Assembly: GCA_027292925.1 (NCBI GenBank)
Contig: JAPUGI010000202.1
Span: 1 to 34,093, forward strand
From: Gammaproteobacteria bacterium
GTDB lineage: Bacteria > Pseudomonadota > Gammaproteobacteria > Pseudomonadales > Azotimanducaceae
Direction of reading: 5' to 3'
Length of the DNA stretch: 34,093 nt
A program made the position numbers and the translations under genes. Every line of letters begins with the position of its first letter. The stretch's first letter is position 1. This document shows positions 5,341 through 27,619 of the stretch, piece after piece. Under the pieces are notes generated by a model that was not told where the DNA came from, did not search any database, and worked only from the letters and a program-made list of their open reading frames with translations.

Positions 5341-7179
5341 TCAGCTTCCCGCGCCGTCCGGGTTGAATATATTTTCCTTCAGTTCTTCTCGATCCAGAAA
5401 CGGATACATATCTTCCAGGCTCGGAGATACAATTGTACCGTCAGCTAACTGTCGGGAACTAATTCTTGGTTCCAGTCCCTGTTCGGGGTCGAGTATGACT
5501 TCCAATAGTCCAGGGCCATCGTGCGCTAAAAAGCGCTCCAGGTCCTCATCGAATTCATGTTCTTCAATGCGAGATGCGGGTATTCCATAGGCTTCTGCGA
5601 GTTTGGAAAAATCCGGGAAGCCTATTCCCGAATGCCGACTTTCACCAGATCGCCTGTTAAAAAAATTAGTCTGTGAGCTGCGAATTGAAAGATAACCATC
5701 GTTATTGAGTACAATAATTTTTATCGGTATCTGACCACTTGCGATGGTCTGAAGTTCCTGGGAATTAAGCATTATGCTTCCATCACCGGCCAGGCAAATT
5801 ACTCTCTTTTGCTGCCCCCGATCTGCGACAGCACCGTAGTAGCTACCGATGGCGGCAGGTAAATCGTAGCCCATGGATGCACTGCCCGAGTTAGAAAATA
5901 GGCGCTGACCAGCTTTAATCTCTGCAACCTGGAACGCTACGATGCAAGCTGTAGAGTTTCCAGTGACCACAATATCGTCACTCTCCAGTAACTCAAATAA
6001 CCTGGAGACAAAATGGTAAGCGTTGATGGGGCGTGATGAATCGCGTTGATGTGGCAGTACCGACGGATAACGTAAAGTTCGATTCCGGCACCAGCCTAAC
6101 CAATTTTCATGGTCGCTCGCATGGTGGTTACTTTTTTGCAATTGAATCGACAGTTCCCGGCAGAAAGAAGCCGCATCGGCAAGTAGTGGTTGATCGGGCT
6201 GGTATGTCGGTTTGGAGAATTCAGCAGAATCTATGTCAACCTGAATCACGAATGCTTTTTTTGCAAAGTTTTCCCAGTTGTAGCTGGTTTGCCTGATGTT
6301 AAGACGTGATCCGATGACGATTAACAGATCGGCGTTCTGCACAACGAAATTGCCGGGTCGCGTTCCGATGGTGCCTGGTCGTCCGCAATAAAGCGGGTGG
6401 TCCGATGCAATAATATCGTGAGTCCAGGCTGTCGTAACAGGGATGCCAGCAACATTGATGAGTTGACTAAAATCCGCAATGGCGTTAGCTAGACGAATAC
6501 CACTACCAGCCATGAACACGGGGCTTTTTGCGTTTCTTATTCTCTCTGCGATTTCGCCGCAGACCCTGGACAGGTCTTCTTCTGCCAAAACTTCATTCTC
6601 GGATGGGAATTCACCTGGATCAAAATGCGGTAGTAATTTCGTATCAACTAACGATGATTGGATGTCTATTGGGATATCTAGCCAGACTGGCCCCGGTCTG
6701 CCATGGTTGGTTAAAAACCAGGCTTTTTCCAATTCGTAAGCGACCTGTTCGGGATCCAGCAGCACCGATGAATACTTCGTTATTGGCGCGGCAATTTTTG
6801 TTATTTCTGCCTCCTGATCGCCTAATTGCCTGAGGTGTTCTACAGGATTGGCGGCGAGCAAGGTTTCTCGTTTTACCTGCCCGGACAGCACTAACATTGC
6901 AATGGAGTCGGTCCATGCACCAAAAACTCCGTTTAGTGCATTAATGCCACCAGGTCCAGCGGTGACGATGGCAACCCCGGGCATCCTCGATAATCTTGCT
7001 TCTCCTTCAGCCGACATTGCACATGCCTGTTCATGGTGTTGATAGACCACCTGGATTTTTGCGTGATGCCCGAACGCATCGTTGAGAAACATTGCGCCCC
7101 CACCTGTCAGCGAGAACACATGGGAAATACCCCACTCTGAAAGTCGGTCAGCTATATACTCTGAAACCCTTATGTTCAT
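5341..7179 (-). CDS. Thiamine pyrophosphate-binding, acetolactate-synthase-like enzyme
   Basis: GDGSIMLNSQELQTIASGQIPIKIIVLNN matches the GDG...NN TPP motif; HHEQ contains the catalytic Glu. Start taken at MNIRVSEYIADRLSEWGISHVF (the ORF track begins at 7239). Confidence 0.88.
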   Translation of the reverse strand: MNIRVSEYIADRLSEWGISHVFSLTGGGAMFLNDAFGHHAKIQVVYQHHEQACAMSAEGEARLSRMPGVAIVTAGPGGINALNGVFGAWTDSIAMLVLSGQVKRETLLAANPVEHLRQLGDQEAEITKIAAPITKYSSVLLDPEQVAYELEKAWFLTNHGRPGPVWLDIPIDIQSSLVDTKLLPHFDPGEFPSENEVLAEEDLSRVCGEIAERIRNAKSPVFMAGSGIRLANAIADFSQLINVAGIPVTTAWTHDIIASDHPLYCGRPGTIGTRPGNFVVQNADLLIVIGSRLNIRQTSYNWENFAKKAFVIQVDIDSAEFSKPTYQPDQPLLADAASFCRELSIQLQKSNHHASDHENWLGWCRNRTLRYPSVLPHQRDSSRPINAYHFVSRLFELLESDDIVVTGNSTACIVAFQVAEIKAGQRLFSNSGSASMGYDLPAAIGSYYGAVADRGQQKRVICLAGDGSIMLNSQELQTIASGQIPIKIIVLNNDGYLSIRSSQTNFFNRRSGESRHSGIGFPDFSKLAEAYGIPASRIEEHEFDEDLERFLAHDGPGLLEVILDPEQGLEPRISSRQLADGTIVSPSLEDMYPFLDREELKENIFNPDGAGS

Positions 7180-7239
7180 AGTCGTCCTGGTATTTCTAAT
7201 TCTGGGAGGTCTATAACTCAAAGCAGCGGGTTCATACAA

Positions 7240-8439
7240 TCAGACAATAATAATCTCTAATTGTGGTGCTGAACGCCTAATTTGATCCACAACTGTTGCA
7301 GCATTTAACGCTATGGCGACAACCATTGTCGCTCCTTGCTCCATGGCCATGCGCATGCCTGCTTGATCCGGATAGACCATGACATTGCCTATCGTTTTAC
7401 CCTGTTTCCCAGCATCGTTGTCGATTATTCCTATCAAGTTGGCCTGTGCCAACAGAGAATTTGCCAGCATTCTTCGCCCGTGGCTGCCTGCTCCCCAAAT
7501 GATAACAGGTGTTTGATGGTGCACTAAATCTCGCAAAAATTTGTTGTACGGCATTTTAGTCGAAACTTCACTACTTTGGTGTACATAGGTCCGAATTTTA
7601 TCCGCGGTCCTGATTGAAGGGCTTTGATCGGCAGGTTCTTTTTGCAAACCCAACCACACACCGAGCGCTGGATAAGATGATGTGGCTCCCACATCAAGGT
7701 ATTTCTGGTGCGACTTGATCACGCTCAGGCCGGTATGAAAGCCAAGCATTTTGATCGCGTCCAGGTCACAGTGGTTAATGTGCTCCGGGTCGAAGAAGTA
7801 AAATGGAGGAAAGCCATCTACCGAGTATTGCGAGGCATCAGGTACTTCAATATAAAGTTTTCCCGTAGCGGACAATCTTTTCGTTGCGGCTTTGGTGCAT
7901 TCGCGCATGTCATAGACATGTTCTAATACGTGGGAGAGTATGATCAGGTCACATACTCTTGGGTCCAAGTCCCATTCAGAGTCTTCCAACGTTGCGACGC
8001 AAGCTTCAATCCCCCGTGCCCGGATCGCCTCCACACAGGCTGGAGATGGGTCGATACCATACAGATTGGTATAGCCGCGTCGTTTGAATTCCACCAAAAC
8101 TCCACCCTTTGCCGCACCGATGTCTAGAATCGCTTGATCCTTCGGCACGCCGTCCGTCAGTTCATCCACAAGGCTGGCTATACGCTTTTGATCGAGGATA
8201 GTGTCTCCCGATCCGCTGGCATTTAAGCTCGATTCATACTTCGTTGCCTCTGCATAGTATTTACGGTAGTCAGACGCCCTGGCATGAGATCTTGCGAATA
8301 CGAAGCCGCATGCACTGCACGAAGCGATTGTTGTGTTGCCGGGTAGCGGGGAGCCCTCATCCAGGCAATACTTCTGGTTCCATATGTCGTTCGCTTCTGT
8401 ATGTGAGCAAACTGGACAGCCACGAAGTGAAGCTGTCAT
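7240..8439 (-). CDS. Class I SAM-dependent methyltransferase with N-terminal zinc-binding domain and C-terminal Rossmann-like domain
   Basis: N-terminal CPVCSH...CSACGFVFA; SAM motif ILDIGAAKGGVLVEF; DLIILSHVLEHV; C-terminal VIIWGAGSHGRRML...IIDNDAGKQGKTIGN. Confidence 0.82.
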   Translation of the reverse strand: MTASLRGCPVCSHTEANDIWNQKYCLDEGSPLPGNTTIASCSACGFVFARSHARASDYRKYYAEATKYESSLNASGSGDTILDQKRIASLVDELTDGVPKDQAILDIGAAKGGVLVEFKRRGYTNLYGIDPSPACVEAIRARGIEACVATLEDSEWDLDPRVCDLIILSHVLEHVYDMRECTKAATKRLSATGKLYIEVPDASQYSVDGFPPFYFFDPEHINHCDLDAIKMLGFHTGLSVIKSHQKYLDVGATSSYPALGVWLGLQKEPADQSPSIRTADKIRTYVHQSSEVSTKMPYNKFLRDLVHHQTPVIIWGAGSHGRRMLANSLLAQANLIGIIDNDAGKQGKTIGNVMVYPDQAGMRMAMEQGATMVVAIALNAATVVDQIRRSAPQLEIIIV

Positions 8440-9485
8440 GCGGGAACTGCATACAGGACTGTATCAAATCCATTACAGCCATGACTTCTGATGTAAAAGT
8501 GGTAGTTCAGATCAAACTGATGAATCATTAGTAAAAGAATCCATAGGTCATCCGGTTTGTGATACGTGCTGATAGCAAGAACAGGTTTATACTTGCTGAT
8601 CAAATTTTCAGCGCCTCTGATACTTGCTGCTTCCGCTCCTTCGACATCCATCTTGATCAAGGTAGGTGCAAAGTTTTTGCAGGCACTGTCCAGGCTTTCC
8701 ACCTTGATGGTAATTTCTCCGCGTTGATCTATATGAGAAGCTCCGGTGCCGAGATTCGAGAATCGAATTGTCCCCGTGCGATCATAAGTGCCGGTGTTTA
8801 TTGCTTCTCCCAATCCATTTGACTGAAGATAGTTATCCAACCTTGAAAAGCTCTCCGGGTCGGGTTCGAAAGCGATCACTTTTTCGAATTCATAACCCCT
8901 GGCGATTAAGTTTCGGATTGTATCGCCGTCATAGGCACCGCAATCGATCATTCTGATTGGTTGCGAATATGGGGGTAATCCGTCCGGTGCATACTGCCCG
9001 GAGGCATCAGGTGTGCTCAAACCAACGTAATCGCCGTGACTCCGTAAGGCGATTTGTTCGGCAAACAAGCGCCGACTGGTATCGTCATCCAACAAATTAT
9101 AAGCACTGTTGATTTCTGATTGTTTCGAGCGCCATTCGAAATGGGGTGATAGCCAGTAGGGTTCCTGGGGTAGCCATCTTTCCTGTTGACAGAACTGCCA
9201 CAGCGTAGCGATATTAGAGTAGCCTGATTGGTTGAGGATCTTCAGAATCTCGGCGATGGGTGATTGATAATTGTGAACCGCTATTACCACCTGATCTTCT
9301 GGATTTGAAAACCGTTCCCGAGCATCCTCTAACTGGTAGACGTTGACCCCGCAGACATTGTCCAGTTCGGCACCTCTTCGATCAATGAAACAAACCGGTT
9401 TTCTGTCGACGGAAATCAAATAGTTGAGTACTTCTACGCCCAATCCACCTGCACCGTAGATCAGAATTCGACGATTAATGGTCAT
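8436..9485 (-). CDS. FkbM family methyltransferase with N-terminal PglD-like Rossmann domain
   Basis: N-terminal ILIYGAGGLGVEVLNYL...FIDRRG; FkbM motifs MIDCGAYDGDTIRNL, VIAFEPDPESF, LIKMDVEGAEAASIRGAE. Confidence 0.85.
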   Translation of the reverse strand: MTINRRILIYGAGGLGVEVLNYLISVDRKPVCFIDRRGAELDNVCGVNVYQLEDARERFSNPEDQVVIAVHNYQSPIAEILKILNQSGYSNIATLWQFCQQERWLPQEPYWLSPHFEWRSKQSEINSAYNLLDDDTSRRLFAEQIALRSHGDYVGLSTPDASGQYAPDGLPPYSQPIRMIDCGAYDGDTIRNLIARGYEFEKVIAFEPDPESFSRLDNYLQSNGLGEAINTGTYDRTGTIRFSNLGTGASHIDQRGEITIKVESLDSACKNFAPTLIKMDVEGAEAASIRGAENLISKYKPVLAISTYHKPDDLWILLLMIHQFDLNYHFYIRSHGCNGFDTVLYAVPA

Positions 9486-9885
9486 GTAGTTTTCTCTCGG
9501 TCTTATAGACGAAGTGCTTCATTAAGAGGTAAACGATTGCAGCCATGGGTAATATCAGGATTAAGCCTGAGATATATGGATTCAAGCCTGCAAGATCCAG
9601 CAGCCAAAGAAAAAACACAGTGATCAGATATTGTAGGGAGTAGACCAGGAGAAATAGTTGTAGTTGCTTAATATTAATGGGGTTTGCATCAAAAACGAAT
9701 TTACTCGTGTTCACGAAATTGAATAAGACGCCCAGAATGGTTCCAAACAATGCAGCCCATGCGTAATGGAATCCCAGGAACAATAAGCCAGCATAGCAAC
9801 CGTAACCAAACAGCGTGTTAATGCCGCCTATGATGAGAAATCTTAGGGGACGGGGAAACTCCATCCAGCTTTGTTTGCTAGACAT
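9475..9885 (-). CDS. GtrA-like membrane protein
   Basis: 136 aa with four TM segments; RFLIIGGINTLFGYGCYAGLLFLG...FNFVNTSKFVF is the GtrA family signature. Confidence 0.82.
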   Translation of the reverse strand: MSSKQSWMEFPRPLRFLIIGGINTLFGYGCYAGLLFLGFHYAWAALFGTILGVLFNFVNTSKFVFDANPINIKQLQLFLLVYSLQYLITVFFLWLLDLAGLNPYISGLILILPMAAIVYLLMKHFVYKTERKLHDH

Positions 9886-9899
9886 GTAAACTTCAACCT

Positions 9900-10991
9900 C
9901 TAAAGACCTCGATCATAGATCAACTCTTGCAGCGTTTTATTTTTTGCATAAGGGCTATCAACATCATCAATGTGAATCGGGCTGTCTTTTTGTAAATCTG
10001 ACACAAGTCTCTCTCCATTCATTAGTTCGCGGCATGAAATCTGACCTTTCTGAAGAGGTATCGCAAGGTAGACGTTGTCGAGGGTTAATATAGATCCCTT
10101 CTTCAAATCTTTCTTTGCATAAACTCCGCGAACCAGCTGATCAAGATACTCAACTTCCCTTCTTTTAGGGATGCGCATCTGGTTACCCGATGCACCACAC
10201 ATGAGCACCGCAGTTTTCCATGCTTTGAACCAGGTATCCGCTTGTTGAGGTAATGTGCAGTAGGATGAAACGGGTATGCCATCAGCATCGATATCAATAT
10301 GTCTCTCAAAAGTGCGCGCACCTTTTGCATATGCCAGCATGACTGACGAGTGCCAGTCGTTTTGTTCGTGACTTGAAAATCCGATAACGGTATCTGGAAA
10401 TCGGTCCACCAGGAAATCGATTTGATTCAATTCCAGTTCATCATCATCAGAAGGGTAAAGGGAAACGCAATGGTTTATTGCAAGAGGAATGTTGCGGCGA
10501 GAGAAAAAAGTAACCAGATCGTCGATGTCCTTCAAAGATGAGCCGCCTGTCGAGACAATGACAGGTTTGCGGATAGTGGCTATTTTTTCAATCAGTATCC
10601 AGTCGTTTATGTCCGAACTCGCAATTTTTATGATATCAATACCAAGCTCGACGCAAAGATCTACCGAGCGATCATCAAACGGCGTGGACATAGTAATGCA
10701 TCCTGATGATCGAATCGCACGAACCAGGGTTTCGTAATCATCCCTGCTCAATTTTGTATCAAGCGTTTTCTTTATGTACTTGACGTCCTGCCGCTCGCGA
10801 AAGTCGGAATGAATGAAGGCATCTACATCGCGAAATTGTAGTTTGATGGCTGCCTTTATATTGTTGTAGCGAACTATTCGGGAGAATGCGGAAATTATTG
10901 CCATCCCTCGATTCACCTCTCCCCAATGATTGTTGGCCATTTCCAGCACAAACAAGTCGGTGAAGAGTTTTTCCCCGTTGTCCATAAACAT
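9900..10991 (-). CDS. N-acetylneuraminate synthase (NeuB/SpsE)-family protein with C-terminal SAF-like domain
   Basis: FVLEMANNHWGEVNRGM, STPFDDRSVDLCVELGIDIIKIASSDI, KPVIVSTGGSS, IGFSSHEQ, then RGVYAKKDLKKGSILTLDNVYLAIP (SAF domain). Confidence 0.85.
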   Translation of the reverse strand: MFMDNGEKLFTDLFVLEMANNHWGEVNRGMAIISAFSRIVRYNNIKAAIKLQFRDVDAFIHSDFRERQDVKYIKKTLDTKLSRDDYETLVRAIRSSGCITMSTPFDDRSVDLCVELGIDIIKIASSDINDWILIEKIATIRKPVIVSTGGSSLKDIDDLVTFFSRRNIPLAINHCVSLYPSDDDELELNQIDFLVDRFPDTVIGFSSHEQNDWHSSVMLAYAKGARTFERHIDIDADGIPVSSYCTLPQQADTWFKAWKTAVLMCGASGNQMRIPKRREVEYLDQLVRGVYAKKDLKKGSILTLDNVYLAIPLQKGQISCRELMNGERLVSDLQKDSPIHIDDVDSPYAKNKTLQELIYDRGL

Positions 10992-11219
10992 TTTGCCTTC
11001 TGCGACGACTTCCTCACATTATAACGGGTTTTGGCCTTCGCTCAGCCATTCGGTTTGTTCGATACTTGGCAAGTCGAGCCTGTATAATTGCTAGCTAACC
11101 TTCATGCTATGGCTTGCACCCGTGGGTCGAGAATCAAGTCTTTACCAATCAGGTCTTGAAGGTAAATGCGGGCGGGAGAATTCGGTGAAAACCAACGGTT
11201 GAAGAGGAACATATGACGG

Positions 11220-12164
11220 ATGAAAAAAATATCCATAGTTACGGCATGTTTTAACGAAGAGGAGAGCGTAGAGGAGCTATGTCGACGCATCAAAGAGGTC
11301 CTTGTTAATCTAGCGGATTACGATTACGAGCATATTCTGATTGACAATCATTCGACCGACCGGACTGTGTCAATCATCAAATCTCTTGCCGCAAAAGACA
11401 TGCGCATTAAACTCATCGTCAATGCTAGAAATTTTGGAGCCATCCGCTCCGGTTACTATGGATTTTTGCAGGCACAGGGTGATTGCGTTATCCCAATGGC
11501 GGCCGATCTGCAGGATCCACCCGAATTGATACCGGAGCTAGTTAAAAAATGGGAAGAGGGATTTAAGGTCGTTCTTTTCGTCAAGCCACAAAGCAATGAA
11601 AAATGGCCAATGTCAGCCATCAAACGCTATTACTACAAGTTTGTAGATTACATTTCGGATATCCCATTGGTAAGAAATGCAACCGGCGCCGGGTTGTACG
11701 ACAAACGGGTTGTTGAAATCTTACGAACCATTGATGACCCGTATCCTTACTTTCGTGGCCTAGTGAGTGAAATAGGTTTCCCAATAGCGACTATCCCATT
11801 CTGTCAGCCACTTCGACAACACGGGGTGACCAAAAGCAATTTTTATTCACTTTATGATATGGCGATGTTGGGGATAACTAAACATTCCAAAGTCCCTCTA
11901 CGGCTGTTAACCATGTCTGGATTTCTACTATCGCTTCTTAGCGTCTTACTGATGGTTTTCTATTTTTTTATGAAGTTGATCTACTGGGATAGTTTCACCC
12001 TGGGAATGGCGCCGATACTGTTAGGTATTTTCTTCTTTGCATCGGTGCAGCTGTTTTTTATGGGTATGCTTGGTGAGTACATCGGCTCGATACACACGCA
12101 TGTACGAAAACTGCCTTTAGTTGTTGAGATAGAGAGAGTCAACTTTGAAGAAGAGGCAAATTAG
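11220..12164 (+). CDS. GT2 family glycosyltransferase, GtrB/DPM1-like
   Basis: ISIVTACFNEEESVEELCRRI, IDNHSTDRTV, ADLQDPPELIPEL, two C-terminal TM helices ending in GMLGEYIGSIHTHV. Confidence 0.9.
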   Translation: MKKISIVTACFNEEESVEELCRRIKEVLVNLADYDYEHILIDNHSTDRTVSIIKSLAAKDMRIKLIVNARNFGAIRSGYYGFLQAQGDCVIPMAADLQDPPELIPELVKKWEEGFKVVLFVKPQSNEKWPMSAIKRYYYKFVDYISDIPLVRNATGAGLYDKRVVEILRTIDDPYPYFRGLVSEIGFPIATIPFCQPLRQHGVTKSNFYSLYDMAMLGITKHSKVPLRLLTMSGFLLSLLSVLLMVFYFFMKLIYWDSFTLGMAPILLGIFFFASVQLFFMGMLGEYIGSIHTHVRKLPLVVEIERVNFEEEAN

Positions 12165-13138
12165 GTGGGAACCGCATAAACTAACGGTAAAGGTAGACCA
12201 GCCTGTGGTATCACTTCACTGGAGTAACCGGCTTTTTCAAGCGCGTCACAAACAAGGTTCGTATTGATCTGGCCATTTATGAAGTGAGGTTCAATAATCA
12301 GACGTGGTTTATAACGGCGTAGAAAATCCGAAGCGGAGTCAAGTACTTCCACTTCAGATCCTTCGATATCCATTTTTATAAATTCGACGTGCGTTACCTC
12401 GTATTCCTGACACATATCATCAAGCGATATGACGTCGACTTCATAGACATTGGACTCCCTGCCGAGGATGGATTTTATTGCAGAACCCATATTCCCTTCA
12501 CCCTGAAAATACAGCTTCGTTGTGGATGACCAGATTCCTTTGTTTACGGGAGTGACGTTTTGCAATGAGTGCAGCTTAATGTTTTTATTGAGCGCCTGGA
12601 AATTCTCAGAGTCCGGTTCGAGAGAAATGACACGTCCTTGGCTTCCTACAGCCTTGGAAAAGGCCCATGACGATGCGCCACAATAAGACCCGAGGTCGAA
12701 TACAACATCTCCTGCTTTAAGCGCTGCTTTTTCGATGTAGATGTCTGTTGTATCGAGCGGTTCAGCGAACGATGTAAAGTAAAAAGCAAGATCCAGTTCG
12801 GTCAGTGTGTGCATCCCAGGTTTTGAATAATCTACAACCTGTATTCCATCCATGGTCTTGTTTTGTACTGCGGAAAAGTAATAGTCGAAGTTGTTCACGA
12901 TGTCGTAACAATATATGAGGTGCCGAAACGATACTCTCAGGTGTCGATTTCCTTCTATTAGCGTAATGGTCTCTACAGGCTTTTTTCCTTCGAGCTGCAC
13001 TTTTATTCCCTTACTTCTCGCGATTAGTTTCAGGAAACCGGGCATTGTCGCCAGCATGGTATCAACGCCTACAGACTTTACCAGGCGGTAAATTAGGGGC
13101 TGCTTCATTAGAGCGGAAAGTATGTTTTTTATAGCCAT
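12161..13138 (-). CDS. FkbM family methyltransferase
   Basis: VVFDLGSYCGASSWAFSKAVG, VISLEPDSENFQALNKNI, VEFIKMDIEGSEVEVL, YKPRLIIEPH. Confidence 0.85.
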   Translation of the reverse strand: MAIKNILSALMKQPLIYRLVKSVGVDTMLATMPGFLKLIARSKGIKVQLEGKKPVETITLIEGNRHLRVSFRHLIYCYDIVNNFDYYFSAVQNKTMDGIQVVDYSKPGMHTLTELDLAFYFTSFAEPLDTTDIYIEKAALKAGDVVFDLGSYCGASSWAFSKAVGSQGRVISLEPDSENFQALNKNIKLHSLQNVTPVNKGIWSSTTKLYFQGEGNMGSAIKSILGRESNVYEVDVISLDDMCQEYEVTHVEFIKMDIEGSEVEVLDSASDFLRRYKPRLIIEPHFINGQINTNLVCDALEKAGYSSEVIPQAGLPLPLVYAVPT

Positions 13139-13228
13139 GGCTCATGATATAAGACCTAGCGAAATCTTCAATTAACGGACCAGGGAGACGAGTCGTTAAC
13201 CAGAGGCACCCGGGTCTGAGGAAGTAGA

Positions 13229-15490
13229 TTGAACTACCTGCATGAAAGACAGGGCAGTCTCCTGTTATTTGGCCTGCTAATTATGGTTCCTCTTACCTGG
13301 TGGGCACTAATAGGTTGGCGGCCACCCTATTTGTTGGATCAACATGACAACCTGCAGATGGGATATATTTATTTCAGGGATTTGATTGACAAGGGTGGAA
13401 ACTGGCAGCAACTAATGTACTGGCCTGGACTCCAGGGAGGTGTGAAGGTACATGATGTGGTTGGAAGCCCGCCCTTCGCGCAGTTGCTCGCATATTTAGG
13501 GTTTTCAACTCTTAGCATAAGTAATCTTTCGATATTTTTTATTCAGGTGCTGTTCGCGTACTTTTCCACAATCTCGGTATTACGGTTGGCGACGCTTGTT
13601 TTTGGCAACACGGAGCAGACTCCTCTATTCGTTCTGATTGTGATTGGTTTGATTTTCGCTTTTCTCCCGCTCCTGGGCTGGCGTTTAACATACGGGCACA
13701 CCAATATCATTTTTGGACTGTTTGTATTCCTTTGTATGACTACGTTGTTACTGGAAGAAATTACACATTCACGTTCTCTGCTAACAGTGTTATTGAGTGT
13801 GCTCGCGCTTACGCATGCCTTTCAGTTCAATGGCTACCAGATGGTCTACTACAGCGTACTTTTTGGCGGACCTGTTGTTTACGCCGTACTATTCGCGAAA
13901 CCTAACATTCCAATCAAGGAACGCTTCGGCTTTCTGACATTTCCTGTACTGATTTTTTTTGTTGCTCTCCTGATCAGCCTGCCGAAATTCGCTGGAATCG
14001 CAGCCAATGCCTTTAGTCAAGATATGGGGCGATCCGCTTACAATGAGGTCATCTACGGTTACACTACCGCGACCCTGGCTGACTGGATCAGCTCTGTGTC
14101 CTGGAGCGCCAGTTTCATTTCAGACGAACGCCCCGCTTTCCTACACCAGGAAGTAAATTATCCACTGGGCCCGCTGATATTGATGTTGTTCCTGACTGGA
14201 TTCAACCAGGTGAGTTTTCGTCTTCTGATGGGCCTGGGAGCGTCCCTGGTACTAGCAATGATCGTCAGCATGAATATCACTCCTGTCTCGACGGTATTAG
14301 TAGACTATCTCCCGTTGCTGGAAAGCTTTCGAGTTCCAGCGAGAGCTATCATGCCGGTTATAATTTTCGCGACATTGTTGGGTGCTGCAGCCCTGTTAAC
14401 AGTTTTACTGCAAGCCAAGGGCGCAATCCACCTATGGTTATATCCAGTTCTCATCGCACTGATCGGAATTACTTCGTACAACGATTCAGTCCTTAATGAT
14501 TTGCTTCTATGTATGGCAATACTGCTCATTGCCATTTCGATCAGAGAGAACAGGTCGCGAAAAGATGTCGTTCTTGTTTGTCTGGTACTTTTTGTCGGTA
14601 GTGCGATCTCTGCCTTCCATGAAAGAATCAACCCACCTTTGAAAAACCCCATTAGCGAAGCTGTCAGCATCCCAATAAAGCAGACCGTCTTTGCACAAGC
14701 ACCAGTGCTATCTGATCCGCTTCACCGTGCTTATGTGAATTTCCAGTTACGTACCATGGGGTTTAACTCAGCCTATTACATTGGTATTTCCACGTTAAGT
14801 GGATACTGGTTTCCCCTGGGTCGTTTCGGTCGTCTTTATTCGGAGCTCAATGGGCTACGGTACAATCCAGCGGTGGCTGTATTCAATAATTCTCCGCAAC
14901 TTCGGAGTTTTCATCCGTTAAACCAGCTATATAACGTGGGCTGGTTAGTAGAGAGTGTTGCGGGTGAGTTGAGAGTACGCTCTCTTGAACCGACCCTGGG
15001 ACCGGCCTGGATTTCCGGGGAATTAAAGCCAGTTAAGTCTATCGGTGAAGTCGCTGAAACTTTAATCCAGGATGTTGATAAAACGATTGCAATACGTCGC
15101 TGGCAAGCTCTGGTAGACATAAATGATCCAGTCAATGCCGGATTTGACTTTGATACGATCCGATGTGAATCAGCCGATATCATGGATATTAGAACCAACC
15201 CGGATTCAACCGTCATCGAGATAAATCTTGCTAACAAGGGTACCTGTTTGCTCACGGTTGCGACCAATTTCGCGGGCAGCCTCAAAGCCTATGATGGGTA
15301 TGGTTTCTCGCTTGAAACTCTTGTTACCTACGGTTCCCTGTTGGGTGTGGTGTTACCGGATAACACGACGTTTGTAGCAATTCGGGCTGAAGCATGGATT
15401 CCTTTGTGGAGTAAGATCGCTTTTAACCTGGGCTGGATACTGCTCCTGATATTGATGTTCTTTTACAAATATTACCCGAGAATTTTCTAA
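13229..15490 (+). CDS. Large polytopic membrane protein, probable lipid-linked-sugar-dependent glycosyltransferase (YfhO/GtrC-like)
   Basis: 753 aa with a TTG start, many TM segments and a periplasmic-looking C-terminal domain before a final TM. The family call rests on topology and context. Confidence 0.6.
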   Translation: MNYLHERQGSLLLFGLLIMVPLTWWALIGWRPPYLLDQHDNLQMGYIYFRDLIDKGGNWQQLMYWPGLQGGVKVHDVVGSPPFAQLLAYLGFSTLSISNLSIFFIQVLFAYFSTISVLRLATLVFGNTEQTPLFVLIVIGLIFAFLPLLGWRLTYGHTNIIFGLFVFLCMTTLLLEEITHSRSLLTVLLSVLALTHAFQFNGYQMVYYSVLFGGPVVYAVLFAKPNIPIKERFGFLTFPVLIFFVALLISLPKFAGIAANAFSQDMGRSAYNEVIYGYTTATLADWISSVSWSASFISDERPAFLHQEVNYPLGPLILMLFLTGFNQVSFRLLMGLGASLVLAMIVSMNITPVSTVLVDYLPLLESFRVPARAIMPVIIFATLLGAAALLTVLLQAKGAIHLWLYPVLIALIGITSYNDSVLNDLLLCMAILLIAISIRENRSRKDVVLVCLVLFVGSAISAFHERINPPLKNPISEAVSIPIKQTVFAQAPVLSDPLHRAYVNFQLRTMGFNSAYYIGISTLSGYWFPLGRFGRLYSELNGLRYNPAVAVFNNSPQLRSFHPLNQLYNVGWLVESVAGELRVRSLEPTLGPAWISGELKPVKSIGEVAETLIQDVDKTIAIRRWQALVDINDPVNAGFDFDTIRCESADIMDIRTNPDSTVIEINLANKGTCLLTVATNFAGSLKAYDGYGFSLETLVTYGSLLGVVLPDNTTFVAIRAEAWIPLWSKIAFNLGWILLLILMFFYKYYPRIF

Positions 15491-15512
15491 ACTGAGCTTC
15501 GCTGTGAGGCAG

Positions 15513-16589
15513 TTACATCCAGTCGGAATGCGTCGCGGCCCATTTTGCAGTCTTATCTATTGCGGTCTCAAGGTTGATGTCAATGTCAAGATCAAGATCC
15601 CGCGCCCGCGAGACATCGGGGACATAATAGCTTCGATGTGATGATTTCTCTCTGTTTTGTATGCTTACTCCCCGTGAGTTACCGGTAACTTTAGCCACTG
15701 TATGGGCCAGCGCTGCAATGGTGGTTTCCATGCTTGAGCCTACATTATATGCGGTATCAGCTTCACCCTTAAGAAGGAGTTCCCACAACCAGATGACCAG
15801 ATCCGATGTATACATATAGGAACGCACTCCCAGACCGTCACCACGGATAATTGTTTTCCTGTTGTTGAGGCTGTCTGCGATAAAGTTACCGATGGCGAAA
15901 TTTTGATCAAGCGGAAGATAAGGGCCAACAAAAGCGAAGCACCGGGCGGATACCACGCTGATATTGGGGACGGAGTTCAACATGGTTTCTGATAGCTGCT
16001 TGGAGGTTCCATAATCGGTTATTTCGAGCCCGTGCTCCGGTGAGTTGAGTTGAGCCTCAAAAAAAGGTGTGTGCAAACCAAGATCATCATAAACAGCACC
16101 GGAACTCAGGAATAAAAGTCGATCAACGTTTGTGTTTGCAGCAAAACTTCCAATGTTCCTGGTGCCGCGAATAATGGCATTGCCTACCTCTTGTGGACTC
16201 AAGTAGGTGCTGGTATCGGCCGCCCCATGGATGACATAGTCGGGGTTGGAATCAAGCTCTAGCGGTTGGGTTATATCACCGGATATAAGGCGCAATTGTC
16301 CCTCTGCAAATTCTACCGGCCACCTGGCCAGGGTGAAATCGGGATTTCGTGTAAGAACATCAACGGAAAGCTTGACACCCGATTCAACCCGGGCATGAAG
16401 TAAACTGGCTAACAGCCACCTGCCGATAAACCCGGTACCCCCCGTAATAAAGATGCGTGAGCCATTCAATGAATGAAAAATATCTTCTGTACTGGCGAGG
16501 ATGTGATCTAAATCTTCTCGGGGGAGTTGGAACGGAATATCCACTATTTCAAAAATGGAGATTGAGATAGAGCGTTGTTCTTCATTCAA
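15513..16589 (-). CDS. NAD(P)-dependent extended SDR (nucleotide-sugar epimerase/dehydratase/reductase)
   Basis: IFITGGTGFIGRWL (GxxGxxG), FLSSGAVYDDL, DYGTSKQLSE (YxxxK), FVGPYLPLDQNFAIGNFI. Confidence 0.85.
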   Translation of the reverse strand: MNEEQRSISISIFEIVDIPFQLPREDLDHILASTEDIFHSLNGSRIFITGGTGFIGRWLLASLLHARVESGVKLSVDVLTRNPDFTLARWPVEFAEGQLRLISGDITQPLELDSNPDYVIHGAADTSTYLSPQEVGNAIIRGTRNIGSFAANTNVDRLLFLSSGAVYDDLGLHTPFFEAQLNSPEHGLEITDYGTSKQLSETMLNSVPNISVVSARCFAFVGPYLPLDQNFAIGNFIADSLNNRKTIIRGDGLGVRSYMYTSDLVIWLWELLLKGEADTAYNVGSSMETTIAALAHTVAKVTGNSRGVSIQNREKSSHRSYYVPDVSRARDLDLDIDINLETAIDKTAKWAATHSDWM

Positions 16590-16598
16590 GGCTCACGT

Positions 16599-17894
16599 TC
16601 AGGAATAGAAGTCATGAAAAGATTCGATCATATAGTCCAGCATGGCGGGTTGTAACCCGGGATAAACACCCACCCACAGGGCCCTTTGCATGGCAAGGTC
16701 TGTATTAGTCAGTTCGCCGTGTATTCGATATTCCCGACCTTTAAAGTAAGGTTGTTTGGTGAGATTCCCGCCAAATAACAGGCGAGTACCAATCTTTCGT
16801 TGCTCAAGAAATTCAATCAACGCCACTCTTTTATCCTCGCGCAAACAAAGCGGGAATCCAAACCAGGCCGGATCAGCGTCGGGCGTTGCTTCTGGTAACG
16901 TAAGGTGTTCTTGAAGGTCCTGCAAACCTGTTTTTAAAACTTCAAAGTTTTCTTTGCGCTGCTCAATAAATCCCGGGAGTCTTTGCAATTGCGCTGTGGC
17001 AATTGCTGCCTGCATATCGGAAATTTTGAGATTGAACCCCAGGTGGGTATAGGTGTACTTGTGGTCATAGCCGTATGGCAGGTCACCCAGTTGCCAATCG
17101 AAGCGTTGCTTACAGGTATTTGCTATGCCGGGTTCGCAATAGCAATCACGGCCCCAATCGCGGATAGATTGCATGATTCGATCAAGTTTTGATGAGCGCG
17201 TAAATACAGCACCGCCTTCTCCCATCGTAATGTGATGGGCAGGGTAAAAACTCAACGTGCCAATGTCGCCAAAATTGCCGACCAGTTTTCCTTTATAGGT
17301 TGATCCCAATGCATCGCAGCAATCTTCAATCAACCATAACTTGTGAGTCACAGCGATTTCCTTGACCACACCCAGGTTGAAAGGGTTACCCAGGGTATGT
17401 GCAAGCATAATGGCACGAGTCTTATCGGTAACTGCAGATTCGATCTGATCTGCATCAATATTGAATGTGGCGATGTCTATGTCAATGAAGACGGGAATCA
17501 TGCCGTACAGCAGCATTGGGTTCACTGTTGTAGGAAATCCCGCCGCCACAGTGATTACCTCATCACCCGGCTGCAGCGCTCTGTCATCCAACTTTGGAGA
17601 AGTTAGTGCTGCGAATGCGACCAGGTTTGCTGACGAGCCTGAATTGGTCGTTAGTACATGACGCGGCCCGATAAATGCAGCAAGATTCTTCTCGAATTCT
17701 TCGTTGAAACGCCCCGTTGTCAACCAACCGTCCAGGCAAGCATCCACCATTGAAACCATTTCACTGGCGCCGATGACTTTCCCGGATGGCGGGATGGGAG
17801 TTTCTCCTGGTGTGAAGTGCGCAGTTTGCGAGTACTTCAGCTCGGCGAACCCTTCAACCAGATCGAGAATTTTATTGCGTATAGGATCTTCCAT
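16599..17894 (-). CDS. rfbH: CDP-6-deoxy-L-threo-D-glycero-4-hexulose 3-dehydrase (E1, RfbH/DdhC family)
   Basis: DegT/AspC-type aminotransferase fold. [14 protein letters not shown] carries His in place of the PLP Lys. Cysteines are spaced C-X57-C-X1-C-X7-C (IEDCC...[14 protein letters not shown]), counted by hand. Confidence 0.95.
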
Positions 17895-17896
17895 GG

Positions 17897-18991
17897 TCAG
17901 GAGTTTCCTAGATAATTACTAATCTGAGATGACGTGAATGCCATCATATCATCACCCTGGTGCCAGGCGTCGTACCAGGAAAAGGTCTGCTGAACGGCTT
18001 CTTTTACATTCCACTTTGACTGCCAACTAAAGGCCTGCTTCGCTGCGCCCGGGTCAAGCATCAGGAGCACCGCTTCAGGAGGACCAGTATCTGCTCCGTT
18101 TTCGAATTTAAGATCCGGCCAGACTTCCGAGGCGAGTTTAAGTAATTCAGTCACCGAAATCACTTCCTCTTTTTCAGGACCGAAATTCCATGCCTTGCAC
18201 AGGTTCCGCTGTTCTCGCATTTCTTGGGCAAGTAGCAGATAGCCGGATAAAGGTTCCAGCACGTGTTGCCATGGGCGAACTGATTGCGGGTTTCGCACCT
18301 TTATAATGTCGTTGGCCAGCCAGGCTTTTATGGTATCAGGAATCAGCCGGTCTTCCGCCCAATCTCCACCACCGATGACGTTTCCCGCTCGGGCGCTTGC
18401 AACATGGATATTGGGATGGGAACCTGAAGCTGAGAAGTAACTGTGACGGAAACTGCTTGTAACAAGTTCTGCGCAGGCCTTGCTCGCACTATAGGGGTCA
18501 TTTCCACCAAGAGGATCGCTCTCCTCGTAATGGTGATGCTGCTCAACATTGAGATAGCATTTATCGCTGGTAACGATCACAACATCGCAATGGTGCTCAA
18601 GAGAACATACCGCCTGCAGCAGGTTTGCTGTGCCCATCACATTGGTTTGGAATGTTTCCATGGGACAGCTATAACTAACTCGAACCAGTGCCTGCGCGGC
18701 CAGATGGAATATGACGTCCGGCTCTGCGCGTAAGACCGCCTGTTCCAGTCTTTTCCGGTCATTGATGTCGGCGATTATCGATTCAACCCGATCTGAAAGC
18801 CTGATGATGTCGAACATGGAGCTAGCAGTAGTCGGAGCCAGGGCGTATCCAACTACATCTGCGCCCATCTGCGCGAGCCAATGACACAGCCAGCTTCCTT
18901 TGAAACCGGGATGCCCCGTGACCAGGACTTTTTTCCCGGACCAGTGACCGGGAACTACCATACCTTCCATGGTGCTTCGCCGGATCGCCAA
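17897..18991 (-). CDS. rfbG: CDP-glucose 4,6-dehydratase
   Basis: [82 protein letters not shown]. The true start may be MVVPGHW at 18961. Confidence 0.95.
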
Positions 18992-19725
18992 TATTCTTCG
19001 AGAAATTGTCTTTCCCGGATGGTGTCCATGGGTTGCCAGTAACCTTCGTGCCGGTAGGCGACGAGATTACCTTCTGCGGCAAGGGTGGTGAGGGGTTTGT
19101 CCTCCCAGAGCGTTGCGTCGTTTTCGATATAGTCAAAAATTCCATTGGACAGGACAAAAAAGCCTCCGTTTATATAGCTTCCCGGACCGACCTGCTTCTC
19201 ACGAAATTCTTTAACCATATCGCCCTCGAGGGACAAGGTGCCGAATCGCCCCGGCGGGGGTACCGCGCTGACGGTTGCCAGTTTTCCATGGGCATTGTGA
19301 AACGCCACCAGAGCGCCGATGTCGATGTCACCGACACCGTCACCGTAGGTAAAACAAAACGGCTCATCGTCATTGAGGTACTTTTTCACGCGTAACAATC
19401 TGCCGCCGGTTTGAGAATCCTCGCCGGTGTCGATAAGTGTCACCTTCCAGGGCTCAGCCTCGTTTTCGTGTACCTGCATTTCATTGGTTTGCATATCGAA
19501 GGTCACGTCAGAGTTATGAAGGAAATAATTCGCAAAGTATTCCTTGATGATATAACCCTTGTAACCAAGGCAAATCACGAACTCATTAACACCGTGAGCA
19601 CTGAAAATTTTCATGATGTGCCACAGGATGGGTTTGCCCCCAATGGTTACCATAGGTTTCGGGCGCACCTCGGTTTCTTCTGCCAGTCTCGATCCCCGAC
19701 CGCCAGCCAATATTACCGCTTTCAC
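18955..19725 (-). CDS. rfbF: Glucose-1-phosphate cytidylyltransferase
   Basis: MKAVILAGGRGSRLAEETEVRPKPMVTIGGKPILWHIMKIFS...FCFTYGDGVGDIDI...ATVSAVPPPGRFG; overlaps rfbG. Confidence 0.96.
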   Translation of the reverse strand: MKAVILAGGRGSRLAEETEVRPKPMVTIGGKPILWHIMKIFSAHGVNEFVICLGYKGYIIKEYFANYFLHNSDVTFDMQTNEMQVHENEAEPWKVTLIDTGEDSQTGGRLLRVKKYLNDDEPFCFTYGDGVGDIDIGALVAFHNAHGKLATVSAVPPPGRFGTLSLEGDMVKEFREKQVGPGSYINGGFFVLSNGIFDYIENDATLWEDKPLTTLAAEGNLVAYRHEGYWQPMDTIRERQFLEEYWRSGEAPWKVW

Positions 19726-19916: not shown

Positions 19917-21869
19917 GTGATTATGACGTCTCGACGACTTGACGCCACGATTTGTTTGCTAGTTTCTGCAAGTTTGTTGTTGGCTTACTGGTTAACCATG
20001 CCGAAGGTGGTCACTTTCGAAGATTCAGGCTTGTTTCTACAGGTTTGTCACTTCAATGGTATTGCACACCCCCCTGGTTATCCTTTGTTTACTTTGCTTT
20101 GCGTTCCCTGGTTTTGGCTGCCAGTCGATCCTGTGATTCTGGGAAATTCACTGAGCGCCGTTTTCGCGGCGCTCACATGCATTGTTGTGTATTTCATACT
20201 GAAACAGCTCGGCGTTCATCGGTTCATTGCGGCTGTCACCTGCATACTCCTTGGATTGTCCAGGGATTTTTGGTCCCAGGCCATCATCGTCGAGGTTTAT
20301 TCGCTCAATACGTTGCTGGTATCACTCGAAATTTACCTGGCGATATGTTTTGCAAACAAACCACAAAAATGGCACCTGTTTACGATGAGTTTCATCTTAG
20401 GGCTTGGCCTATCAAATCACTGGCCAATCGTCCTTTTGTCGTTCCCTGGATTAGCACTCGTGTGTCTGGCTCGCGTGGAGGACCTGGGGAAAGTACTGCG
20501 ATCTCCTGCCAATTGCCTCATCTGTTTGCTGTTGTTGGTTTTTGGACTCGTGCCCTATTTGTCACTATTTCTAAAGTCAGATCCGATTTTCAGCTACTCG
20601 GGTCCAGTTACCACGGTTGCGGAATTCATCCCCTATTTGACACGTGAGGCCTATCAAGGCGTTGATCAATCAGCCACCGCTGACTTGATGGATAAAATTC
20701 AGTTCGTCGGCTGGCTGGCCACTCAATCACTTTTGCAATTTGGTTATGGTTTTGCCCTGGTTTCCCTCGTGGGTTTGGTGCGCGGGTTTGCTGTTGCTCG
20801 TCTGGTCAATGCAGGAATACTCATCATCTTCCTCAGTAATACGGTCGCACTCGCCTTTTTACTGGGTTTTGAGTTTGACTTTATTCACCGGGGTGTTTTC
20901 AAGCCTTATCCCCTTGTTGCATGGGTCTGTATGAGTCTGTGGATAGGTCTCGCGCTGCAGTGGGCCTCAGGTATTCCAGTCAGGAAGGTCATACCGGTTT
21001 TGATTGTTGCGGTGTTTGGATTGGTAATGTTTCTTGTGAACTGGCACCGGAATGACCGCAGCGAGGACAGGCTCGCCCATGACTACTCAAGTATTCTGCT
21101 ACAGAGTCTTGACCCTTCATCAAACCTGATCGTTACTTCAGATCCCCAGGTCGGCCCGGTTTCCTACCTCAACCAGGTAGTTGGCTTGCGCCCTGATGTG
21201 ACGTTATATGAAGCGGAAAACCTGTTTTTTAGCAATAAGTTACCAGGGAAAACTGTGGCGGAGAGAAAATCCTTTGTGCTGAACTTGTCATCCGTGTCCT
21301 CGGTTGGTATTCCCTGGTTAACAGATGGTCAGGATTATGGGTTGTACCTGAAGCACGGACCGGGTCTGGATGGCTATGAACTGATTCCGGGAATCGAGGA
21401 TTTCGTCTCTGCTCTTGTGGATGACTACATGGCCGGGGAATTTCGTGATCCAAATACGCTGTATTTTTCTCATCAGCTTCTTATCGCACTGGGGAACCAT
21501 CTCACCCACTATGTATTCACAGAAAGAGTCGGGCTGAAAGCAGCGGAGATGTTCCAATCCGTAAAGCAGACCTTCCCCGGTATGCTGGCCATCCTGTCGA
21601 CTTCGATCGCCAATCCTCGTTACCCCATGCCAGACGTTGTGTTGTTGGAAATCGCGTTGGCCTTTGATGAGTCGTTCGGCATTGAAACGCCGGACCATGA
21701 AATTGCTGCCTACTACTACTATATGGCTGTTTTGCTGGCTAACCCTGATGCCACACTCGAGAAAAATGAAGAACTTGCCTTGTATTACCTGGACAAAGGA
21801 CTGGCCGTCTTGCCAGGCAAAGATAACCCTGGTCTAAATTTACGCGATGAGTTGGTGTCATCAAACTAG
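19917..21869 (+). CDS. DUF2723 family membrane glycosyltransferase (protein O-mannosyltransferase/TMEM260-like)
   Basis: VTFEDSGLFLQVCHFNGIAHPPGYPLFTLL...GLSRDFWSQAIIVEVYSLNTLL...LGLGLSNHWPI matches the conserved DUF2723 N-terminal pattern. GTG start. Confidence 0.82.
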   Translation: MIMTSRRLDATICLLVSASLLLAYWLTMPKVVTFEDSGLFLQVCHFNGIAHPPGYPLFTLLCVPWFWLPVDPVILGNSLSAVFAALTCIVVYFILKQLGVHRFIAAVTCILLGLSRDFWSQAIIVEVYSLNTLLVSLEIYLAICFANKPQKWHLFTMSFILGLGLSNHWPIVLLSFPGLALVCLARVEDLGKVLRSPANCLICLLLLVFGLVPYLSLFLKSDPIFSYSGPVTTVAEFIPYLTREAYQGVDQSATADLMDKIQFVGWLATQSLLQFGYGFALVSLVGLVRGFAVARLVNAGILIIFLSNTVALAFLLGFEFDFIHRGVFKPYPLVAWVCMSLWIGLALQWASGIPVRKVIPVLIVAVFGLVMFLVNWHRNDRSEDRLAHDYSSILLQSLDPSSNLIVTSDPQVGPVSYLNQVVGLRPDVTLYEAENLFFSNKLPGKTVAERKSFVLNLSSVSSVGIPWLTDGQDYGLYLKHGPGLDGYELIPGIEDFVSALVDDYMAGEFRDPNTLYFSHQLLIALGNHLTHYVFTERVGLKAAEMFQSVKQTFPGMLAILSTSIANPRYPMPDVVLLEIALAFDESFGIETPDHEIAAYYYYMAVLLANPDATLEKNEELALYYLDKGLAVLPGKDNPGLNLRDELVSSN

Positions 21870-25820: not shown

Positions 25821-26126
25821 CTAGCTTTCAGTTGCAAAAACCTTGCGCACCGCATTGCCAGTTTCCTCAACGGCTGATTTAAGAATTTCAGCCTGTGAGA
25901 GCGTGGCCTCGCGCAGGTTGCTCCACAAGGTTTCACCATATTCCCGCTGTAGTTCCATGAACGTGGTAACGTCACGAACATCGGGAAGCTTCTGGCTGAA
26001 CTCGCTGTTAAGCTCAAAATACTCGGCGAAGTTTTTCTGTGTGGACTGGGATAGCTCCTGAAATGTGTTCTGGTTGATTTCAAAAAGTGTACGACCGAAA
26101 TCTGCTTGTCTTTCTAGGATACTCAT
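25821..26126 (-). CDS. Phasin family protein
   Basis: 101 aa helical protein MSILERQADFGRTLFEINQNTFQELSQSTQKNFAEYFE...LQREYGETLWSNLREA. Confidence 0.8.
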   Translation of the reverse strand: MSILERQADFGRTLFEINQNTFQELSQSTQKNFAEYFELNSEFSQKLPDVRDVTTFMELQREYGETLWSNLREATLSQAEILKSAVEETGNAVRKVFATES

Positions 26127-26161
26127 CGCTATTTTCCTGTCTGCTGGTTTGTTTTTAGGGA

Positions 26162-26545
26162 TTAGGCGGAAGCTTCAGAATTTGCCTTGGCTTTTGCCTT
26201 CGATTTTGGAGCAGGTTTCGCCACAATTTCTTCAACGACTTCTTCCGTTGTACTAAAAGCTTTCTCGAATGCCAGGCGAGTTTCCTTAAAAGCGCCGCTG
26301 AAGATGCCGTTTTGAGTTTCAACAGCGTCTCTAACATTGCTCCACAAAGTTTCACCATATTCACGCTGCAGGGAAACGAAACTTGAAACGTCGTTAACTT
26401 CAGGCAACTTCTCGCCAAAGGAGCGATTAGTTGAGAAGTACTTTTCAAAGTTTTCTCGTTGCAATGTGACCAATTCTCTCAGGGTACTGGTGTTAATCTC
26501 GACGATGGATCTTCCGAGTTCAGTTTGTCTTTCAATGATGCTCAT
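26162..26545 (-). CDS. Phasin family protein (tandem paralog)
   Basis: 127 aa MSIIERQTELGRSIVEINTSTLREL...SLQREYGETLWSNVRDAVE; shares phasin motifs with the downstream gene and has an Ala/Lys-rich tail. Confidence 0.82.
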   Translation of the reverse strand: MSIIERQTELGRSIVEINTSTLRELVTLQRENFEKYFSTNRSFGEKLPEVNDVSSFVSLQREYGETLWSNVRDAVETQNGIFSGAFKETRLAFEKAFSTTEEVVEEIVAKPAPKSKAKAKANSEASA

Positions 26546-26603
26546 GTATTTTCTCCGTATTCAGGTTGTTTTATTGGAGCAGTTCTTACCGCTCCATCAA
26601 TGA

Positions 26604-26672
26604 TGCAGTGCAGCATTATATATTGCAGTGCAACAAATTCAAGCTTTTTTTGAAAATATTTTGTGCAGCGCA
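26604..26672. promoter_or_regulatory. Candidate PhaR operator cluster
   Basis: Three TGC-N3-GCA dyads: TGCAGTGCA (26604-26612), TTGCAGTGCAA (26623-26633), TGCAGCGCA (26664-26672), upstream of the phasin gene and of the divergent hydrolase-phaR unit. Confidence 0.55.
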
Positions 26673-26785
26673 TCATTTTCGTCACACCACGTGATTGTTT
26701 GTGATTAAATCCTTGATTTCAAAGCAGAAGTTAGCGAAACTCGAATTTGTTCGTTGCAACATAAATTTGCTCTAGGTTCAAATAA

Positions 26786-27619
26786 TTGTCGGCGGAGGTG
26801 GTTTTGTACGAAGAATTTGAAGATGATGTACGCAGTTTCAGGCCTCCCTCCCTGTTTAATACTGTGACTGAACTACCCCGGACCCTGATGGAAATGGGCT
26901 CGTTGCTGGCAACCATGCCACTCCTGTCGATACTGCCCAAAGGTGATCAGCACCCGGTGTTGTTGCTCCCGGCATTCATGGCAAGCGATGATTCTACGAC
27001 TGTAATACGCCGCTATTTACTGCGAATGGGTTACGAGCCCTTGCCCTGGCAACTAGGTAGAAACACCGGCAGGATGTATTTGCTTGAGGAAAAGCTGGTA
27101 GACAGGTTCGAACAACTAAGGCGCACCTACCAGTGCAAAATTTCCATCATTGGCCAAAGCCTTGGCGGTGTGTATGCACGTGAAATTGCACGCCGGTTTC
27201 CGAATGATGTCCGTCAGGTGATTACATTGGGGAGTCCTTTTAGCACCAGAAAAGCCAGCTCAACAAACCTGCTTGTGGCAAAGTTATTCCACCAGCAATC
27301 AGGCATGACTATAGAAGAGATGCGAGACAGATTACCTGACGCGAAGATAGGATCCACCGTGCCAAGTACCGCGATTTTCTCCCGGGGAGACGGCATTGTT
27401 AACTGGCGTGTGTGCCAGGAAGTTGATGGGCCGATGGCGGAAAGCGTTGAAGTTATTGGGAGTCATTGCGGCATGGGCTTTAATCCGCTGGTTTACTTCA
27501 TTGTGGCGGACAGACTGTCTTTGCCAATCGGCAAGTGGCGCAAGTTTGATTATAGAAAATTACAAGGGTTCACTAATCCATGTTCATTCGGACGGGGATT
27601 AAGAGGATTCGCGAAATGA
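26786..27619 (+). CDS. Alpha/beta hydrolase (lipase/esterase-like)
   Basis: HPVLLLPAFMASDDST, ISIIGQSLGGVYAREIARRFP (GxSxxG nucleophile elbow), VIGSHCGMGFNP. Start uncertain (TTG 26786, or TTG near 26804 behind GGAGG). Confidence 0.75.
   Translation: MSAEVVLYEEFEDDVRSFRPPSLFNTVTELPRTLMEMGSLLATMPLLSILPKGDQHPVLLLPAFMASDDSTTVIRRYLLRMGYEPLPWQLGRNTGRMYLLEEKLVDRFEQLRRTYQCKISIIGQSLGGVYAREIARRFPNDVRQVITLGSPFSTRKASSTNLLVAKLFHQQSGMTIEEMRDRLPDAKIGSTVPSTAIFSRGDGIVNWRVCQEVDGPMAESVEVIGSHCGMGFNPLVYFIVADRLSLPIGKWRKFDYRKLQGFTNPCSFGRGLRGFAK

Follow-up and report, generated by a model that had tools for sequence, protein, structure and literature searches.

We found that a 34,093-nucleotide stretch of gammaproteobacterial DNA (the window; contig C116 of a 401-contig, 3.5 Mb draft genome whose completeness is 89%) probably holds a split gene cluster for a cytidine diphosphate (CDP)-linked 3,6-dideoxyhexose that bears at C4 a branch at least four carbons long and resembles caryophyllose or erwiniose. 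The original prediction from this sequence had described rfbF, rfbG, rfbH and an extended short-chain dehydrogenase/reductase (SDR) as one minus-strand set (15513–19725), with a thiamine diphosphate (ThDP)-dependent enzyme (5341–7179, minus strand) in a second set about 8 kb away; the reading frames and the spacing were as described, and the families were confirmed. That prediction took the pathway to be yersiniose-like, and omitted a NeuB-like synthase (9900–10991) and a GtrA-like protein. The genes on which our reading depends are the following.

5341–7179, minus strand: predicted YerE-like ThDP-dependent C-branching carboligase, with an ATG start at 7179 in a frame open to a TTG at 7239
9900–10991, minus strand: NeuB-like phosphoenolpyruvate (PEP)-dependent synthase carrying a SAF domain; we propose that it makes the 3-deoxy-2-oxo acid used as donor by the ThDP enzyme
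15513–16589, minus strand: extended SDR, proposed to reduce the newly formed ketone of the branch (a YerF-like role)
16599–17894, minus strand: RfbH (E1), CDP-4-keto-6-deoxyglucose-3-dehydrase
17897–18991, minus strand: RfbG, CDP-glucose 4,6-dehydratase
18955–19725, minus strand: RfbF, glucose-1-phosphate cytidylyltransferase

RfbF and RfbG make CDP-4-keto-6-deoxyglucose, from which RfbH and an E3 reductase make CDP-4-keto-3,6-dideoxyglucose; NeuB enzymes condense PEP with an aldehyde to give 3-deoxy-2-oxo acids. In the pathway we propose, RfbF and RfbG would perform their usual steps, RfbH would act with an unlinked reductase, and the NeuB-like enzyme would supply a 3-deoxy-2-oxo acid that the YerE-like enzyme decarboxylates, placing the acyl unit on C4 of the CDP-sugar. 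Reduction of the resulting ketone by the SDR would give the branch pattern found in erwiniose and caryophyllose, C(OH)-CH2-CH(OH)-R; methyltransferases would decorate the sugar, and glycosyltransferases and a ligase would load it onto a surface glycan. Addition of the donor to C4 by the ThDP enzyme is strongly supported by enzyme family and gene context, and there is a good probability that the NeuB-like enzyme makes this donor; co-occurrence suggests that the SDR reduces the branch ketone, and methylation, including its sites, and transfer to the glycan are presumed from the genes present.

RfbF, RfbG and RfbH all exceeded curated NCBIfam equivalog cut-offs (TIGR02623, 433 against 300 bits; TIGR02622, 475 against 278 bits; NF011936, 704 against 423 bits), in line with the CDP-3,6-dideoxy-4-keto-hexose pathway first proposed. 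RfbH keeps the E1-type Fe-S cysteine motif CxC-x7-C and matches a solved E1 (PDB 3bcx) at 624 bits. The SDR has the cofactor motif TGGTGFIG and, as its YxxxK motif, YGTSK. A control set anchored on RfbH and drawn from class and phylum samples comprised 47 stretches, each 10 kb or longer; a YerE-like ThDP gene is present in 20 of them and absent from 27. An SDR of the window type (at least 230 bits) occurred in 9 of the 20 and 1 of the 27 (p = 9e-4). The YerF-like role originally suggested for this SDR is thus borne out in so far as the gene travels with the ThDP gene, its activity as a reductase being predicted.

The two gene sets appear to form one pathway. Among 80 related loci from named genomes, anchored on the ThDP gene, 60 had one or more of the rfbF, rfbG and rfbH genes in the fetched stretch, several others being shortened by contig ends; in two of them, L008 and L009, rfbF, rfbG, rfbH, the SDR, FkbM and PglD-type methyltransferases, the ThDP gene and NeuB follow one another in an unbroken run. 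By this comparison the window is a split version of the L008/L009 cluster, a variant arrangement as had been anticipated. Because the ThDP enzyme is YerE-like and the window's pathway genes are contiguous in these two loci, C-branching of a CDP-3,6-dideoxy-4-keto-hexose is well supported. The nearest relatives of the window are betaproteobacterial metagenome-assembled genomes; a search of a plasmid collection for relatives found none.

What is added at C4 depends on the ThDP enzyme. A yersiniose-like pathway would have it transfer a two-carbon unit from pyruvate, with the SDR as YerF and the NeuB-like synthase an unrelated neighbour; the CDP-sugar genes would be the same, the ThDP family is YerE-like, and an SDR of the window type also occurs (375 bits) in L113, a locus of the PpYerE clade. 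The 5341–7179 protein has all three ThDP-enzyme domains (Pfam TPP_enzyme N, M and C), a GDG...NN ThDP motif and the catalytic-glutamate motif HHEQ, and its scores fell short of all acetolactate synthase (ALS) equivalog cut-offs shown, the best being 320 bits where 538 are required. Its PDB matches were strongest to 8rph (382 bits), which we take to be JanthE, consistent with the CDG motif in 8rph, followed by 5ahk (244 bits) and Escherichia coli acetohydroxyacid synthase (AHAS) I (214 bits). The CDG motif has been named as unique to JanthE, which accepts pyruvate in vitro (PMC12247030), a further point for a two-carbon branch; the numbering of 5ahk supports its identity as PpYerE, since an offset of 20 residues puts the published Val479 (PMC12247030) on the valine of an NNHSLGMV motif.

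We built a tree of 37 ThDP proteins in which PpYerE represented the yersiniose branch, the ErwE and MMAR_2332 sequences being outside the comparison. JanthE and the window protein lie on the same side, and the PpYerE clade includes L113 and L114. The original prediction had proposed a phylogeny against IlvB, with grouping there as grounds for refutation, and it comes through this check: the approximately unbiased (AU) test rejected a tree joining the window protein to the genome's own ALS, E. coli IlvB and Arabidopsis AHAS (p = 1.4e-8). Joining it to PpYerE and the two closest relatives of PpYerE was rejected as well (p = 4e-39). Because both groupings were rejected, the window enzyme is, as placed by phylogeny, YerE-like and not IlvB-like, and lies outside the pyruvate/yersiniose branch of PpYerE. 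Two pocket positions differ as well. Next to PpYerE Val479, 95 of 96 window-side relatives have Ser, against Met or Ile in clades of the pyruvate type, a label that for the L122/L124/L135/L138 clade derives from its lack of a partner gene (see below) and its shared pocket residues. The position presumably equivalent to the AHAS specificity Trp is mostly Thr, otherwise Ser, on the window side and Phe in 7/7 pyruvate-type sequences. The window enzyme has Ser518 and Ser522 (632-residue numbering) against Met478 and that Phe in PpYerE, and this smaller, more polar pocket would be compatible with a longer, hydroxylated donor.

The neighbours of the ThDP gene point to where such a donor may come from. 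We grouped neighbouring genes by clustering and Pfam, the partner families being NeuB-like, HpcH/HpaI aldolase, HMGL-like aldolase and DmpG. Different genes sit beside the ThDP gene in different loci, yet almost all of them encode enzymes with one kind of chemistry, the formation of 2-oxo acids: exactly one of the first three families lies within 4 kb in 70 of the 80 ThDP-anchored loci (HpcH/HpaI in 41, HMGL-like in 20, NeuB-like in 9), on the ThDP strand in 69 of these 70, and five of the other ten have a partner at 5–6.3 kb (75/80 within 7 kb). In the RfbH-anchored set, models built here found NeuB, HpcH or HMGL in 8/20 loci with the ThDP gene against 0/27 without (p = 4e-4); adding DmpG (L112, L115) and a NeuB just outside the L127 stretch gives 11/20 against 0–1/27 (p = 1e-5 to 9e-5), the doubtful ThDP-negative stretch, L118, containing a DmpG-like gene and stopping at a contig end. 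All six partner-less loci with the ThDP gene belong to the PpYerE clade (L113, L114) or the L122/L124/L135/L138 clade. By clade, a partner on the same stretch was found in 11 of 14 loci on the JanthE/window side and none of 6 in the pyruvate-type clades (p = 0.002); two further JanthE/window-side loci have a NeuB gene on another contig. The unclassified neighbours in partner-less loci included no aldolase, two of them being without a Pfam match. Partner type clusters on the tree, with 15 changes over five groups against a shuffled mean of 35, and switches several times.

The identity of some partners is telling. A 4-hydroxy-2-oxovalerate aldolase (DmpG) and an acetylating acetaldehyde dehydrogenase (DmpF) are encoded, at curated level, in L149 and in L112, the locus whose ThDP enzyme branches as the sister of JanthE; L115 has the pair by Pfam. 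The known product of DmpG/DmpF is 4-hydroxy-2-oxopentanoate. These pairs point to donor supply, as this product is of the class used by ErwE, the erwiniose enzyme, which takes 4-hydroxy-2-oxo acids and prefers hydroxylated longer donors, and does not use pyruvate (PMC12247030). The branch of caryophyllose is 1,3,4,5-tetrahydroxyhexyl (PMC5706390), and the CH2 next to its C1' is what an aldol-derived 3-deoxy-2-oxo acid donor would leave. A HAD phosphatase accompanies HpcH in 24 of 41 clusters and HMGL in 14 of 20, and NeuB in only 1 of 9; its rarity beside NeuB fits a donor role, since NeuB would need no phosphorylated aldehyde with later removal of the phosphate.

Separately, an AroB-related 'cyclizing sugar phosphate phospholyase' gene (TIGR04425, 393.5 bits against a cut-off of 400) lies at L068:8308–10046, beside an SDR and near an aldolase or NeuB, and genes of this type recur in clusters L016, L018, L043, L053, L073, L078, L085, L125 and L131, hinting at a carbocyclic branch donor in some clusters.

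By its PF03102 barrel, SAF domain and conserved PEP and metal catalytic motifs, the window NeuB is a member of the NeuB superfamily of PEP-dependent synthases. Its closest solved relative is 3g8r (241 bits), with a sialic acid synthase at 95 bits, and it scored far under the N-acetylneuraminate and pseudaminate synthase cut-offs (TIGR03569, 125 against 400 bits; TIGR03586, 119 against 340 bits); with these poor scores and no CMP-sugar synthetase nearby, we reject a sialic-type synthase. Across the phylum sample, which comprises 397 genomes besides this one, its subfamily occurs in 12. RfbH is present in 10 of these 12 against 27 of 385 others (p = 8e-10), the same 10 have a YerE-like ThDP gene, and in 7 of the 10 NeuB is next to or near that gene on one contig. 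With the window placed outside the PpYerE clade, its pocket residues different, partners present in its own clade and absent from the pyruvate-type clades, and the NeuB subfamily going together with RfbH and the YerE-like ThDP gene, a two-carbon, yersiniose-like branch, the interpretation originally offered, is unlikely; the C-branching pathway and its YerE-like enzyme stand.

In several subfamily genomes a cupin domain is fused to NeuB, giving proteins of about 500 residues with a C-terminal cupin (L155:9605–11182, L157:2197–3741 and L105:8925–10400) that join the synthase to a likely sugar isomerase. Two of these fusions show similarity to D-lyxose isomerase, which suggests an aldose as the NeuB substrate. 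The subfamily also occurs without a YerE-like ThDP gene at L157 (genome G588), where the neighbour is a GFO/IDH/MocA oxidoreductase, and at L151 (G407).

The usual products of the NeuB family are sialic, legionaminic or pseudaminic acids, whose genes can occur in the same loci as those for dideoxyhexoses; the synthase might accordingly serve a nonulosonic acid route of its own, running alongside that of the branched sugar and feeding the same glycan. This we regard as still less likely than the yersiniose-like pathway, given that the subfamily lies far from sialic acid synthases and alternates with aldolases, that the window contig has no CMP-sugar synthetase and that no NeuA-like match was found in the NeuB-bearing loci searched. 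Moreover, contig C332 of the same genome (L088, L091) already has a second NeuB beside a CTP_transf_3 protein, likely a separate nonulosonic acid pathway.

That the ThDP protein is an ordinary ALS, beside sugar genes by chance, is highly improbable: the Pfam domains are common to both and there are weak matches to many ALS models, but the protein is under all the cut-offs shown, the AU test rejects the grouping, rfb genes accompany its relatives, and the genome carries its own ALS (L002, over an ALS cut-off).

Several points weigh against the long-branch pathway that we prefer. It is read from genes, that is, from family membership, co-location and clade placement. The Fe-S motif of RfbH calls for an E3 reductase, but neither the window nor the incomplete genome, which has five FAD_binding_6 proteins, yielded a recognisable AscD/RfbI-like gene, and no aldehyde-making enzyme for NeuB was recognised. 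The window NeuB lies three genes from the ThDP gene and is not adjacent to it. In 5 of the 80 same-clade loci no partner enzyme was found in the fetched stretch, some of which end at contig ends. JanthE accepts pyruvate though its sister locus carries DmpG, so a partner gene need not exclude pyruvate. Finally, the loci share ancestry, their counts are not fully independent and the p values above are optimistic.

We also consider it fairly likely that C-branched dideoxy sugars are modular in general, with a core of RfbFGH, a YerE-like ThDP enzyme and an SDR joined to a swappable donor enzyme, the NeuB subfamily having been recruited several times, and that the partner predicts the length and pattern of the branch. 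If this rule holds, the donor, and hence the branch structure, could be read from the cluster; the NeuB subfamily, annotated as sialic-type, would be reassigned from sialic-acid biosynthesis to donor synthesis; and the enzyme pairs could serve in making chiral tertiary alcohols. The literature searched makes no mention of a NeuB link, and looking there for aldolases in clusters of this kind gave nothing beyond a review; the primary ErwE, JanthE and KbDH papers were outside this coverage and may already note aldolases in some clusters.

The remaining genes around the pathway are as follows.

7240–8439, minus strand: methyltransferase (Methyltransf_23) with a C-terminal PglD/NeuD-like Rossmann region, presumed decoration enzyme; kept in L008, L009 and L036, weaker elsewhere
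8436–9485, minus strand: FkbM-type methyltransferase with an N-terminal PglD-like Rossmann region, presumed decoration enzyme; kept in L008, L009, L010 and L080
9475–9885, minus strand: GtrA-like small membrane protein (PF04138)
11220–12164, plus strand: GT2 glycosyltransferase (PF00535), a frequent neighbour of such clusters with homologues in many related loci
12161–13138, minus strand: second FkbM-type methyltransferase (PF05050), its link to the pathway uncertain

The genes of the minus-strand operon at 5341–10991, which takes in the NeuB-like synthase and the GtrA protein besides the ThDP gene, overlap or nearly touch. A TylC3-like sugar C-methyltransferase was considered and rejected for the 7240–8439 protein, as the PDB search gave no such match. 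Two large membrane proteins (13229–15490 and 19917–21869) flank the rfb genes, one without a Pfam match and the other TMEM260-like, that is, resembling protein O-mannosyltransferases. At 25821–28059, beside glycan genes, lie two phasin-like genes and a polyhydroxybutyrate accumulation regulator.

Among known systems, erwiniose synthesis by ErwE of Pectobacterium atrosepticum shares the CDP-4-keto-3,6-dideoxyglucose acceptor and a YerE-like ThDP enzyme (PMC12247030); the NeuB-like synthase of the window sets the two apart, ErwE being compared by its published description. Caryophyllose in Mycobacterium marinum offers the likeness of a long 4-C branch with a 2'-deoxy position (PMC12247030, PMC5706390), and its enzyme, MMAR_2332, likewise compared as published, that of a ThDP enzyme with an ErwE-like donor preference (PMC12247030); its glycan, in contrast, is a lipooligosaccharide. 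JanthE (8rph), the closest solved relative, is a YerE-like ketone carboligase on the window side of the tree, but has CDG in place of the GDG motif, belongs to a separate clade and has a sister locus with DmpFG instead of NeuB. YerE and YerF of yersiniose A (PpYerE, 5ahk, in our tree) share the pathway logic and the acceptor, whereas their clade is separate, has no partner 2-oxo-acid enzyme and differs in its pocket residues. The synthase itself shares its fold family, SAF domain and PEP and metal motifs with 3g8r and the sialic-type NeuB/PseI enzymes; unlike the latter, it matches sialic acid synthase weakly, has no CMP-sugar synthetase partner and is paired with a ThDP enzyme.

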